Positions 1,427 through 15,020 of a stretch of 22,287 bases of DNA are shown piece after piece. The translations under genes and the position numbers were made by a program. Position 1 is the stretch's first letter, and every line of letters begins with the position of its first letter. Under the pieces are notes generated by a model. The model had not been told where the DNA came from. It saw only the letters and a list, made by a program, of their open reading frames with translations, and did not search any database. The DNA lies in IMG/VR virus record IMGVR_UViG_3300036792_000534, positions 1 through 22,287 of that record; one strand, given 5' to 3'. Origin of the DNA: a virus.

Positions 1427-3442
1427 ATGCGGGGACCAGCTTCGGCCATGGACGATCGGCGGGACCGTTCGCGCTCGTTCGCACAGCGTCAGCGGGAGGG
1501 CGGCGACGAACTGCCGGACCGACCGGCGCAACCCTCCCAGGAAGCGTCCGGCGGGATCACCTCCGGCCCGGCTGAGAGCGCGGCGACCGAACTCCCCGAC
1601 CTGAATAGGCTGAAGCGGTATTTCACCGAGCACGAACAGCTGACGTACGAGGCTCGCCGCAACAGCCTGACGGCCATCGACTACTACGACTCCGACCAGT
1701 TCACGCGCGAGGAGCTGGCCGAGCTGCACGCTCGCGGCCAGCCGGCGGTCGTGATCAACCGGATCAAGCCGGCGATCAACGGCATCATCGGCGTCACCGA
1801 GCGCGGGCGATCCGACCCCAAAGCCTGGCCGCGCAATCCCGGCGACGCCGACAGCGCGGACACGGCCACCGACGTCCTGCGATACATCGGCGACTTCAAC
1901 AGATTCCGCCGGCTCAAGCAGGATGTCTTCCGCGACATCCTCGTGCCGGGCACCGGCGCGGCCCTGATCGGCGCGGACGCAGACAGCCAGGTGACTATCA
2001 CTCAGATCAGGTGGGAGGAATTTTTCTTCGACGCCCGCAGCCGGCGCGCCGACCTGAAGGATGCGCGGTACCTTGGCGTCGCCAAGTGGATGTACGCCGA
2101 CGACGTGGTCGCCCTCTATCCCGACCGGGCGCGGGAGGTGGAGCTCAGCGTCGAGAACACTCCGCTGGGCGGCGGCGGGATCGTCCCGGATCAGAGCTTC
2201 CAGGATCGGCCGCTGAATGGGCCAGGTACGGGCGGGGCGTGGATTGATCCCAAGCTGCGGCGCCTGCTGGTGGTGGAGATGTATTGGCGCGACGGCGGAG
2301 CGTGGAACCGCTCCGTCTTCACGGGAACCGACATCCTCGAGCACGGCCCGAGCCCTTACCTCGACCACAAGGGACGGCCTGACTGCCCGATCGAGGCCCA
2401 GAGCGCCTATGTGCGCCGGGACAACGGCCGCTACGGCGCCGTCTGGGACATGATTGGCCCGCAGGACGAGATCAACAAACGGCGGGCGAAGAGCCTACAC
2501 CTGCTCACCGTTACGCGTCTGGAGGCCAAGGACCCGAGCGCGGTGAACATCGACGCGGACGTGGCGCGCAAGGAGGCCGCGCGGCCTGACGGCGTCCTGC
2601 CGCTCGGCTGGGGCATTGCGCCCAACACCGCCGAGTTCCAGGGCAACATGGAGATGATGTCGGAGGCCAAGGCCGAGATCGAGCGGATGGGGCCCAACCC
2701 CGCCGTGCTCGGCCGCAACGACCAGGACGCCTCCGGCCGCGCCCTGCTGGCGCGCCAGCAGTCCGGCTTGGTGGAGATGGCCAATCTCTATGGCGCTCTG
2801 GAGGACTGGGAGCTGCGCGTCTATCGCCAGTGCTGGGCGAGGGCCAAGCAGTTCTGGCGCGCGCCGCAGTTCATCCGGGTCACCGACGACGAGAACTCGC
2901 CGAAGTTCATTGGCCTCAACCAACCCGCGGTCCATCCGATGACCGGCCAGGTGCTCGGTTATCGCAACGCCGTGGCCGAGATGGACGTCGATATCGAGGT
3001 CGACACCCAGCAGGATGTCGGCAACCTGCAGGCCGAGGCCTTCCAGCAGATCGTCGACCTGGTGAAGCTCTCACCGGGATTCCAACAGCAGGTCACCTTG
3101 AAAGAGCTGATCCAGCTCTCGCCGATCCAGCACAAGCGCGCGATCCTCGACATGATCGACCAGCGCGCCCAGCAACAGGCCGCCCAGGGCGCCCAGGTCC
3201 AGCAAATGCAGACCGCGCACGCGCAGGCCCAGGTCGACAAGACCAAGAGCGAGACGGCGCGGAACGAGGCCGAGGGCACGGCGCACATGCTGAACGCGCT
3301 TAGCGAGGCGCATGCAGTGCATAACGACGGGGCGGCGGCCGCGCTGGAGGCCCAGCTGAAGCTGGCGAACGCGCAGCAGGCGCAGGCGGCGACGGGAGCG
3401 CAGGTGGCGGGGGCGGCGTCTGCGAACGGCCAATTCCCCTAA
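1427..3442 (+). CDS. Portal protein, P22 gp1-like
   Basis: Forms the dodecameric ring at one capsid vertex through which DNA enters and leaves, and docks terminase and then the tail. The 671-aa product is close to the P22 portal (about 725 aa). Residues 74-130 carry the recognisable stretch TYEARRNSLTAIDYYDSDQF followed by GQPAVVINRIKPAINGIIG, seen in P22-type portals. The last 100 or so residues are Gln/Ala-rich and helical, matching the C-terminal barrel helices of that family. The first 55 residues are polar and low-complexity, so the true start could lie a little downstream, but AAGGTGG lies 7-8 bases upstream of this ATG. It is coupled to terminase (one-base gap). P22-type identity agrees with the gp4/gp10-like genes downstream. 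Confidence 0.9.
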   Translation: MRGPASAMDDRRDRSRSFAQRQREGGDELPDRPAQPSQEASGGITSGPAESAATELPDLNRLKRYFTEHEQLTYEARRNSLTAIDYYDSDQFTREELAELHARGQPAVVINRIKPAINGIIGVTERGRSDPKAWPRNPGDADSADTATDVLRYIGDFNRFRRLKQDVFRDILVPGTGAALIGADADSQVTITQIRWEEFFFDARSRRADLKDARYLGVAKWMYADDVVALYPDRAREVELSVENTPLGGGGIVPDQSFQDRPLNGPGTGGAWIDPKLRRLLVVEMYWRDGGAWNRSVFTGTDILEHGPSPYLDHKGRPDCPIEAQSAYVRRDNGRYGAVWDMIGPQDEINKRRAKSLHLLTVTRLEAKDPSAVNIDADVARKEAARPDGVLPLGWGIAPNTAEFQGNMEMMSEAKAEIERMGPNPAVLGRNDQDASGRALLARQQSGLVEMANLYGALEDWELRVYRQCWARAKQFWRAPQFIRVTDDENSPKFIGLNQPAVHPMTGQVLGYRNAVAEMDVDIEVDTQQDVGNLQAEAFQQIVDLVKLSPGFQQQVTLKELIQLSPIQHKRAILDMIDQRAQQQAAQGAQVQQMQTAHAQAQVDKTKSETARNEAEGTAHMLNALSEAHAVHNDGAAAALEAQLKLANAQQAQAATGAQVAGAASANGQFP

Positions 3443-3503
3443 TTGACCGAGCGAGCGCGGCTGCCCGCCGTCACACGGAAAGGCAACTCATAGTGAGCAG
3501 CCG

Positions 3504-3568
3504 GCTTGACAGGTCCGGCCTTGCGGAATCGCGAATCACGCGGACTCGGTTCGGAGGTTCTGTCAAGC
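3504..3568. repeat. 9-bp inverted repeat in the portal-hicB gap
   Basis: GCTTGACAG at 3504-3512 and its exact complement CTGTCAAGC at 3560-3568 flank a 47-base loop. The loop is long for a terminator and there is no T-tract. The arms carry a TTGACA hexamer on both strands, so they could be divergent -35 elements or a regulator site. The rest of the 192-base gap (3443-3634) holds no gene that I can support. Confidence 0.4.
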
Positions 3569-3575
3569 TCTGACG

Positions 3576-3620
3576 TTGACTTACGACAGAGTGTTATCCC
3601 ATATCATGGCATACCGTAAC
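3576..3620 (+). promoter_or_regulatory. Putative hicBA promoter with overlapping operator dyad
   Basis: A TTGACT hexamer (3576-3581) could be a -35 element; the best -10-like sequences are CATATC (3600-3605, 18-base spacing) or TATCAT (3602-3607, spacing 20). Overlapping it, 3593-3620 is an imperfect dyad centred on CATG, with outer arms GTTA and TAAC and 8 of 14 base pairs matching. It ends 14 bases before the antitoxin ATG. The placement suits autoregulation by the HicB-HicA complex, but this antitoxin shows no obvious DNA-binding domain. Sequence-based guess only. Confidence 0.4.
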
Positions 3621-3634
3621 CGAGGGTTCGTTTC

Positions 3635-3883
3635 ATGCCGCACATCATCGTCGTAAGGGCGACCTTCGATGAGGAAGCGGGGGTTTGGTGTACCGAGTCC
3701 GTCGACCTCCCGGGCCTGCGGATCGAGGCTCCCACGTTTGAGGCCCTGCAGGAGAGACTCCCCGGCGCAATCGCCGACCTTCTGGAAGATTGCGAGGGCG
3801 ACGAGGGTCACGACGACATCGAAGTTCCGGTGGAGCTATTCGCCACCGCCAGTTCGCGGGTGCGAGTGCGCGCCTACGCCTAA
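3635..3883 (+). CDS. hicB: HicB-like antitoxin (DUF1902-type)
   Basis: An 82-aa acidic protein beginning MPHIIVVRATFDEEAGVW, followed by SVDLPGLRIEAPTFEALQER and a helix with LPGAIADLLED. This is the partial RNase-H-like fold of the HicB/DUF1902 antitoxin family, which masks the HicA toxin. Only that fold is present; there is no ribbon-helix-helix or helix-turn-helix tail, unlike many HicB proteins. GAGGG lies 8 bases before the ATG. It is followed after six bases by a HicA-like gene, in the antitoxin-first order. Its own promoter-like region separates it from the portal, consistent with an independently expressed accessory gene inside a late operon. Possible roles are plasmid-like maintenance of the prophage or anti-phage defence; neither can be read from the sequence. 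Confidence 0.8.
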   Translation: MPHIIVVRATFDEEAGVWCTESVDLPGLRIEAPTFEALQERLPGAIADLLEDCEGDEGHDDIEVPVELFATASSRVRVRAYA

Positions 3884-3889
3884 GCGCCG

Positions 3890-4084
3890 ATGGCGGACTA
3901 CGGGCCTGCCGTCCGCGAAATCCTGATGGCGAATGGTTGTTGGTTTCACCGCCGCGGTCGCGGTGACCATGACATATGGAAGAGCCCGCACACCAACCGG
4001 CCGTTTACGGTGGACGGTGTGATCAAGTCGCGCCACACGGCCAATGGTGTCTTAAAGGACGCGGGGCTGCCAAAGGCCTTTTGA
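3890..4084 (+). CDS. hicA: HicA-like mRNA interferase toxin
   Basis: A 64-aa basic protein of the length and fold expected for HicA, a double-stranded-RNA-binding-like toxin that cleaves mRNA. The centre reads FHRRGRGDHDIWKSPHTNRP; H27 corresponds to the catalytic histidine in the family's G-x-H-x-I-W type motif, and the tail SRHTANGVLKDAGL matches the usual C-terminal helix. It starts six bases after hicB, so the two are probably co-transcribed and the toxin is translated by coupling. No strong Shine-Dalgarno sequence is seen (AGCG only), consistent with low toxin expression. The catalytic histidine is intact, so the toxin is likely functional unless other residues have drifted. Confidence 0.8.
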   Translation: MADYGPAVREILMANGCWFHRRGRGDHDIWKSPHTNRPFTVDGVIKSRHTANGVLKDAGLPKAF

Positions 4085-4482
4085 GCCGTGTGCTACCCCT
4101 TATCCCTGCCGACCTTCCCTCGCTCCAGACATCCCGCGCCCTCGCCGCGATAAGTCGCGCGCCAGCCGGCTTGCGGATCGCAATCCGCGTCGTGTCGTCC
4201 GGTTCTAGGATGCGGTCCTCAACCATAGATCGGCTGTCTGGGCCGCTCCGGCGCGTCATGCGGGATCGGGGTGTCACAGGTTCGCGACCAAGACGAAGCG
4301 TCGGCGTCCTCGCCGGCTGGGTTCAAAACGACGGGCGGAGGTCCCAAGCCCGCAACTCATAGCCGCCGCCGGGCCATCCCCCTTCGCTCGCTTCGCGAGC
4401 TTCGGGGGACAAGCGGGCGAATCCCTGCCGCCGGGGGTGAACGGGCGAGATCAGGCCGCCGCTGAACGGGCGAGGGAGTTCC
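4085..4482. other. Non-coding gap between hicA and the scaffold gene
   Basis: About 400 bases with no + strand frame that looks coding. It contains a small hairpin at 4173-4188 (GCGGAT/ATCCGC, 4-base loop), a strong palindrome at 4378-4408 listed separately, and a 12-base direct repeat TGAACGGGCGAG at 4438-4449 and 4463-4474. The second copy ends 8 bases before the scaffold ATG, so its GGGCGAGGGAG overlaps the ribosome binding site. An antisense frame at 4023-4277 is open but unrecognisable. The stretch looks like the 3' flank of an inserted accessory cassette. Confidence 0.5.
4378..4408. repeat. REP-like palindrome, copy A
   Basis: CCCCC and GGGGG outer arms enclose a perfect inner hairpin GCTCGC-TTC-GCGAGC (4386-4400), with TTC on either side. 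It is followed by ACAAG. Its outline (CC-rich, TTCGC, GAGCTTCGG, GG-rich, ACAAG) recurs at 5212-5240 and 14966-15025, so these look like members of one palindromic repeat family. There is no T-tract, so an intrinsic terminator is unlikely. Confidence 0.6.
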
Positions 4483-5211: not shown

Positions 5212-5270
5212 CCCTCCTTCGCTCTGCGAGCTTCGGAGGGCGCGCCCTCCGGAGCCTTGGCGAAGGAGGG
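5212..5270. repeat. REP-like palindromes, copy B, between scaffold and coat
   Basis: CCCTCCTTCG (5212-5221) pairs perfectly with CGAAGGAGGG (5261-5270). Nested inside is a perfect 18-bp palindrome at 5234-5251 whose core is GGAGGGCGCGCCCTCC. The left half alone (CCCTCC, TTCGCTCTGCGAGCTTC, GGAGGG) repeats the outline of copy A. The element begins directly after the scaffold stop and ends 31 bases before the coat ATG. It could form a large cruciform or mRNA stem that insulates the coat message. There is no T-tract. Confidence 0.65.
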
Positions 5271-7064: not shown

Positions 7065-7331
7065 GTGGCGTTCCACGACGCCCGCCCCAGACGCTCCGAG
7101 CACTGGCTGCAGGTGGCCACGCTCGTGGCCACCTCGGTCCTGCTCGGGATCCTGGGGTGGATGGCGATGCAGTTCGTCGCCATGCGCGACGACACGCACG
7201 CGCTGAAGGATCAGCTGCAGACGGTCCAGCAGCAGATCACCGACCTGAAAGACAACCTCGGCGAGCGGCTCAATCGCGTGGAAGCGCGGGTCGATAAGCT
7301 CGACGACGAAGCGAGGGAGCGCGCGCCATAA
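7065..7331 (+). CDS. Membrane-anchored coiled-coil protein, lysis-associated (spanin or holin-like)
   Basis: An 88-aa protein with a basic N-terminus (HDARPRRSEHW), one hydrophobic helix at about residues 16-37 (LQVATLVATSVLLGILGWMAM), then a charged coiled coil from about 44 to 85 (LKDQLQTVQQQITDLKDNLGERLNRVEARVDKLDDE). This N-in, coiled-coil-out layout resembles inner-membrane spanins and some small phage lysis proteins, but no outer-membrane spanin partner with a lipobox was found in the window. The start is GTG, as no ATG precedes the membrane helix in frame; the ribosome binding site is weak. Its stop codon overlaps the predicted start of the endolysin, which supports a lysis role. It could equally be a structural membrane-interacting protein. 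Confidence 0.75.
   Translation: MAFHDARPRRSEHWLQVATLVATSVLLGILGWMAMQFVAMRDDTHALKDQLQTVQQQITDLKDNLGERLNRVEARVDKLDDEARERAP
7314..7319 (+). promoter_or_regulatory. Shine-Dalgarno that positions the endolysin start
   Basis: AGGGAG lies 8 bases upstream of the ATA at 7328. This is the ideal distance for that codon and too far from the next non-canonical candidates (CTG 7343, ATT 7346). It sits inside the 3' end of the coiled-coil gene and supports translation starting at the ATAA stop/start overlap. Confidence 0.5.
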
Positions 7332-7801
7332 CTACGCCCGCCCTGATTGAAGACCTCAAGCGGGACGAGGGGTTCCGCGCCCGCGCCTACCAGGACGCGC
7401 ACGGTGTGTGGACGATCGGCTACGGCCACGCCCACGCCGATCCGCGTGCGGTCTGGAGCCTGGACGAGGCCGAAACCCAACTCGCTGTGGATGTCGACCT
7501 CGCCTGCGAACGCCTCGATCACGCGCTTCCCTGGTGGCGGCGGCTGGACGAGGTGCGTCAGGACGCCCTGGCCAACATGGCCTTCAACGTCGGGGTCGGC
7601 CTCGCCCCCTGCGCTGCCTGCCCCGACGGGAGCGGCCTGCAGGGCTTCACCCGCATGCTCGCCGCCCTGGAGGCGGGCGACTACCCGCATGCCTCGGCGC
7701 AGATGCTGCTCTCCGACTGGGCCAAGGACGCGCCGGAGGGCGTGGGCGCGCGCGCCGAGCGCCTGGCGGCCATGATCCGAACCGGAGAGCGCCATCCATG
7801 A
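7328..7801 (+). CDS. Endolysin, T4-type lysozyme fold (GH24-like), non-canonical start
   Basis: Peptidoglycan muramidase for host lysis. Reading from ATA 7328 gives 157 aa beginning (M)TTPALIEDLKRDEGFRARAY. The catalytic triad E-x8-D-x5-T is intact as E14, D23 and T29, in the context QDAHGVWTIGYGH. Further conserved features are DALANMAFNVGVG and the C-terminal RRAW-like region replaced here by VGARAERLAAMI. No ATG, GTG or TTG exists in frame between the stop at 7295 and the GTG at 7406; that GTG would delete E14 and D23. The AGGGAG site and the ATAA overlap with the preceding stop favour ATA, perhaps a mutated ATGA junction. An insertion with CxxC (C95, C98) lies after the VGVG motif. No signal peptide, so it needs a holin. 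Overlaps the holin gene by ATGA. Function confident, start uncertain. Confidence 0.85.
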   Translation: MTTPALIEDLKRDEGFRARAYQDAHGVWTIGYGHAHADPRAVWSLDEAETQLAVDVDLACERLDHALPWWRRLDEVRQDALANMAFNVGVGLAPCAACPDGSGLQGFTRMLAALEAGDYPHASAQMLLSDWAKDAPEGVGARAERLAAMIRTGERHP

Positions 7802-8268
7802 GCGAAACCTCTACTGCGCCGGGCGCTTCGGCGTCGGGTCCCGTCAAGGCTGCGACCATGGACATGCTGCGAAGCGTGCTCATGGGCGCGGGCACGCCCC
7901 TGCTGGCGCGCGGCCTGGTCAACGGCGACCAGCTGGCCGCGATCATCGGCGGACTGCTGGCGATCGCCTCGGCCATCTGGTCCTACGCCGCCGCCCATCA
8001 GGGCGGACCGTCCCTGCTTGCCCGCGTGCTGCCGCTCGCCGCCTCAGCGCGGCGGTCGCGGGCCTGGAACGCCGACGCCGCTGCGCTTGGGGCGGCCCTG
8101 CTGCCGGTCCTCGAGAGCATCGTCGACCGCCAGATCCGCTCGCGCGCCGGTGTGCTGTCAGCCCCGCTCGACGTCGCCGCCAACGCCGCCCTGCGAGCAG
8201 CTGAAGCGAAGGCCATGGCGGCGGTCGAACTCCCCCAATCCTCAAACCAACCGGAGCCATGCCCATGA
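7798..8268 (+). CDS. Holin-like membrane protein (Pam3-gp28-like)
   Basis: A 156-aa product starting at the ATGA overlap with the endolysin stop; frame upstream of this ATG is a shadow of the endolysin. Residues 20-67 contain two hydrophobic segments, MDMLRSVLMGAGTPLLARGL and AAIIGGLLAIASAIWSYAAA, arranged like the small Pam3-gp28-type putative holins found in phages of GC-rich bacteria. Such proteins permeabilise the inner membrane at a set time and let the endolysin out. Unusually, a further 85 or so residues follow, Ala/Arg-rich and helical (SARRSRAWNADAAALGAALL; RQIRSRAGVLSAPLDVAANA), making it about twice the length expected. The extension may be a regulatory or anchoring domain. The next gene overlaps its stop. 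Confidence 0.65.
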   Translation: MSETSTAPGASASGPVKAATMDMLRSVLMGAGTPLLARGLVNGDQLAAIIGGLLAIASAIWSYAAAHQGGPSLLARVLPLAASARRSRAWNADAAALGAALLPVLESIVDRQIRSRAGVLSAPLDVAANAALRAAEAKAMAAVELPQSSNQPEPCP

Positions 8269-14964: not shown

Positions 14965-14965
14965 T

Positions 14966-15020
14966 CCTCCTTCGCTGAAGCTCCCTCCTTCGCCGAGGCT
15001 TCGGAGGGCAGGTTGGAGGA
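14966..15020. repeat. REP-like palindrome, copy C, with tandem half-sites
   Basis: Two 17-base units, CCTCCTTCGCTGAAGCT (14966-14982) and CCTCCTTCGCCGAGGCT (14984-15000), match at 15 of 17 positions with an 18-base period. CCCTCC (14983-14988) pairs with GGAGGG (15003-15008), and TCCTCC (14965-14970) with GGAGGA (15015-15020). The last arm doubles as the ribosome binding site of the following gene, so the fold could mask it. Same family as copies A and B. Confidence 0.6.

Follow-up and report, generated by a model that had tools for sequence, protein, structure and literature searches.

A phage T4-type lysozyme gene with ATA at the start position of its relatives, overlapping the stop codon of the gene upstream

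Lysozymes of the T4 type (PF00959; phrog_7) carry a catalytic set of E, D and T residues and start with ATG or GTG, whereas the phage gene described here belongs to the same family, has the same residues and shows ATA at that position. For ATA, reporter measurements in E. coli, as quoted in PMC12864459 from Hecht 2017, give up to 1% of the initiation obtained with ATG. In a strain of E. coli O104:H4 the start of rpoS was changed from ATG to ATA and RpoS was kept within 5-fold (PMC12864459). Our locus shows the same single-base start change, but the rpoS case, in which the protein was lowered up to 5-fold, is a spontaneous laboratory mutation in a bacterium with no stop–start overlap described. 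In rsbW of Listeria monocytogenes, the downstream gene of an overlapping pair, ATG was changed to ATA as well; the protein was clearly reduced yet detectable, as was reporter translation, and ATA variants were also seen in natural isolates (PMC13068326). This layout resembles ours, in which the downstream gene also overlaps the upstream one, but the overlap in rsbW is 17 bp instead of 4, the gene is a bacterial regulatory one, the change arose under acid selection, and it was shown by experiment whereas ours is read from sequence. Overlaps of 4 nt are the commonest short-distance junction between genes on the same strand in prokaryotes and are associated with termination-reinitiation (PMC10666635). 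Coupling of this kind is described for the coat and lysis genes of the phages MS2 and fr, where translation of the lysis gene depends on termination in the preceding gene (PMC12548453, PMC10666635); these are single-stranded RNA phages with a long overlap with the coat gene and another lysis protein, whereas at our locus it is the overlap that points to coupling. Both the enzyme family and the change of a start from ATG to ATA are known, and what is new is their occurrence in a phage endolysin at a coupled junction. A literature search, judged by title and abstract, found no phage endolysin with an AUA start, which is weak evidence of absence. If real, the locus would show AUA starting, in nature and inside a coupled junction, an enzyme that lysis normally requires, and would serve as a test case for whether AUA is better tolerated in reinitiation than in de novo initiation.

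The locus is part of the IMG/VR record IMGVR_UViG_3300036792_000534 from an uncultured phage, the 22,287 bases of which (66% G+C) were analysed as a whole and are called the window in the following. A small lysis module, encoded on the + strand, sits there between the capsid and tail genes. It starts with a gene for an 88-aa protein (7065..7331, GTG start at 7065, stop TAA at 7329-7331) that has a hydrophobic N-terminal segment followed by a coiled-coil tail and shows a weak match to Rz-like spanins (phrog_89, E=0.0018; phrog_1009, E=6e-5); a similar coiled-coil gene precedes the lysozyme in relatives. It is followed by the lysozyme (endolysin) frame, which comprises 157 aa if ATA is the start (7328..7801, stop TGA at 7799-7801), and by a holin-like gene (7798..8268), whose own ATG overlaps the lysozyme stop in a normal ATGA junction and whose product matches the Pam3 gp28 holin family PF23987 (E=1.2e-5, slightly below the curated cut-off). 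Among the remaining proteins of the window that were scanned we recognised no second lysin, though several of them match no family. The window encodes no tRNA and hence no odd initiator tRNA.

The lysozyme frame matches the PF00959 family profile with E=3.2e-16 (60.2 bits against a cut-off of 22.3) and the endolysin family phrog_7 with E=1.1e-27. It shows the catalytic pattern of E, eight residues, D, five residues and T (7367..7414), in which E14 (7367-7369), D23 (7394-7396) and T29 (7412-7414) align with E11, D20 and T26 of T4 lysozyme. The frame encodes a phage lysozyme of the T4 type, for which muramidase activity is predicted. An earlier note on this DNA had stated that neither ATG, GTG nor TTG occurs between the stop at 7295-7297 and a GTG at 7406..7408, which itself lies after E14 and D23, and sequence and translation bear this out: following the TAA at 7295-7297 the frame reads ARRRSEGARA-ITTPALIEDLKRDEGFRARAYQDAHGVWTIGYGH..., and the GTG is codon 27, so that the shorter form would begin at residue 27 and retain T29 with the loss of E14 and D23. 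Also correct were its placement of AGGGAG, which is Shine-Dalgarno-like, at 7314..7319, 8 nt before the ATA at 7328..7330, and its observation that this ATA overlaps the upstream stop TAA (7329..7331) as ATAA, the TAA being the one that closes the 88-aa frame. The Shine-Dalgarno region includes GAGG (from 7313) and GGAG. A mechanical ORF list takes the GTG at 7406 as the lysozyme start, and this may serve as a warning for annotation, as such a choice shortens the lysozyme and removes two catalytic residues.

A run of 36 codons free of starts is unremarkable alone at 66% G+C (by our own estimate about 1 in 4); it is the comparison with other lysozymes that makes the window exceptional. Of the 96 distinct lysozyme loci that we surveyed, all 96 possess a canonical start ahead of the catalytic glutamic acid, the window being the sole exception. 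A search with the major capsid protein yielded 57 related contigs with lysozyme matches at 24 loci, 21 of which were examined. Their lysozyme start falls on the column of the ATA in the window and is ATG in 20 of them and GTG in the remaining one (L089); for L139 the alignment begins at residue 9 and the ATG is found eight codons earlier. Four more contigs identified with a degenerate DNA pattern (L142, L143, L150 and L155) all have ATG. Nearly all of these 25 related contigs share the N-terminus MTT, and the window reads I-TTP at the same column. The upstream TGA overlaps the lysozyme start as ATGA or GTGA in 14 of the 17 relatives checked, which argues for coupling as the ancestral layout. 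The suggestion that an ATGA junction had mutated from G to A gains support from this alignment as the simplest history, since the column of 7328 holds ATG, usually as ATGA, in all relatives but the one with GTG. No relative was found to have an ATA start, even when IMG/VR was searched with a degenerate DNA pattern covering the start region. A search for a closer copy with the 88-aa upstream protein returned only L083, the nearest relative. The searches as a whole, from which such records may have been withheld, returned no near-identical genome. For the cultured relative Pam1 no lysozyme is annotated in the region that follows the cement protein, and it hence offers no junction to compare.

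We propose, with a probability of roughly 0.5, that the ATA is the true start, that initiation there is inefficient but assisted by coupling with the upstream gene, and that less endolysin is made as a result. The ancestral start would have been an ATG within an ATGA overlap with the upstream coiled-coil gene, and a single G-to-A change at 7330 would have converted ATGA into ATAA, with the start becoming ATA and the upstream stop TGA becoming TAA; as one stop is exchanged for another, the 88-aa protein would be unchanged. Initiation at the ATA might then be carried out by a ribosome finishing the upstream gene or by a 30S subunit bound at AGGGAG, with fMet-tRNA initiating there at low efficiency. 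The endolysin would be full-length but scarcer, and the holin would retain its own ATG. By analogy with rpoS and rsbW, the likeliest outcome is that full-length endolysin is produced, though more slowly; we infer that the base truly occurs in the population, that the ATA is used and that the output is reduced. A much more specific model, namely a maintained AUA start which works only via the 4-nt AUAA overlap, so that the endolysin is wholly dependent on upstream termination and, as a means of timing lysis, is kept at a level far lower than that of the holin, has in our opinion only a small chance of being correct.

The arrangement expected of genes coupled by termination-reinitiation is present, as the upstream stop and the ATA share a 4-nt overlap and the Shine-Dalgarno site lies ahead of the stop. 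Its duplex with the anti-Shine-Dalgarno sequence has an energy of -8.4 kcal/mol compared to -6.6 kcal/mol for the homologous site in L083, and the stronger value results from a synonymous arginine codon, which is AGG in the window and CGG in L083, AGG accounting for 5.7% of the arginine codons. Compensation of this sort has been reported for weak start codons (PMC5622118), and the AGG difference could be such a compensation if AGG is the derived codon. The folding energy around the start (-15.3) is the second weakest of 18 sequences, which also makes the start region a favourable one.

The lysozyme ORF is intact, with no stop or frameshift in 157 codons, and comparison to L083 gave dN 0.063, dS 0.671 and dN/dS 0.094 (87 codons), indicating purifying selection. 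With L089 as outgroup, 6 nonsynonymous and 10 synonymous changes fall on the side of the window and 3 and 13 on the side of L083, a difference that is not significant (p=0.43). As judged from these substitutions the gene has not been dead for long, and a very recent loss is possible. It is this intact and selected ORF together with the good Shine-Dalgarno site that leads us to favour an ATA start which is weakly used and aided by coupling.

The A at 7330 is one base in one assembled metagenomic contig, and as all relatives have ATG or GTG and the other main window genes whose starts were inspected begin with ATG or GTG as well, it might be a consensus, assembly or minority-variant artefact in a population that truly has ATG (as ATGA). 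We consider this rather unlikely: the per-base rate of consensus errors from short reads is low, such an error would have had to strike a start codon, and the remainder of the ORF is without sign of error. Consensus error was absent from the explanations listed in the earlier note, which named resequencing as a refuter. The change might also be real and the allele null or too weak for lysis, as would be the case if the endolysin had been damaged recently in a genome that is defective or derived from a prophage, or if it were rescued by coinfection. The upper limit of 1% for ATA quoted above would fit such a loss, even if the host may differ from E. coli, and so would the fact that the next in-frame start drops E14 and D23. 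Nevertheless the ORF is not only free of stops but conserved, and by our estimate several stops would be expected at a neutral divergence matching the synonymous changes (stop fraction 0.028, 468 sites), so that any loss must be recent; since the Shine-Dalgarno site is intact too, we regard a dead or inadequate allele as unlikely.

Initiation might instead take place at another non-canonical codon that keeps E14, and CTG at 7343 and ATT at 7346 are both in frame ahead of it. CTG and ATT are weak starts in E. coli. For ATT a value of about 0.3% of ATG is quoted in PMC10666635. As AGGGAG would lie at a distance of 23 or 26 nt, none of the relatives starts at either codon and the protein would lose the conserved TTP segment, we take their use to be very unlikely. 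The lysozyme lies in the -1 frame of the 88-aa gene and runs across the stop of the latter, so that a ribosome slipping or shifting by -1 near this stop might also fuse the membrane/coiled-coil segment to the lysozyme. Here we found no slippery heptamer (GCGCGCGCCATAA), and the frame relation is not conserved, as the two genes are separated in L083 by a 38-nt insertion, which is not a multiple of 3, and are spaced differently in L092; a fusion is therefore extremely improbable.

The junction is a variable place. Between window and L083 dS is 0.154 for the 88-aa gene, 0.671 for the lysozyme, 0.532 for the gene of a 156-aa protein and 0.432 for the capsid gene, the difference between the first two of these values being significant (p=0.0002). 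This pattern of substitutions suggests a recombination boundary at or near the lysozyme start and a recent exchange of the 88-aa gene. The junction itself reads ATAA in the window and GTGA in L089, and in L083 a repeat interrupts it. The repeat in L083 (L083:5060-5102) is a 33-bp palindrome (TCCTCCTTCGCCAAGGCTTCGGAGGGCAAGCCG) located between the 88-aa gene and the lysozyme, where the insertion amounts to 38 nt; it has a GATGA on either flank, resembling an insertion that duplicated its 5-bp target, and places GGAGG ahead of the second ATG. Relatives of this repeat are present in two further junctions of the window, at 14965-15012 and at 5212-5267, the latter being an inverted pair ahead of the capsid gene, as well as in L086, L088 and L115, and a contig scan with the repeat returned as its only hit one copy in the contig L156 of a bacterial MAG. 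In the window at 14965, in L083 and in L086 the repeat directly follows a TGA. Elsewhere in the window, the region between the portal and scaffold genes (3440-4400) shows no more than background nucleotide identity to L083, as in an exchanged segment, and the ORFs at 3635 and 3890 have their matches in L146 at a different genome position.
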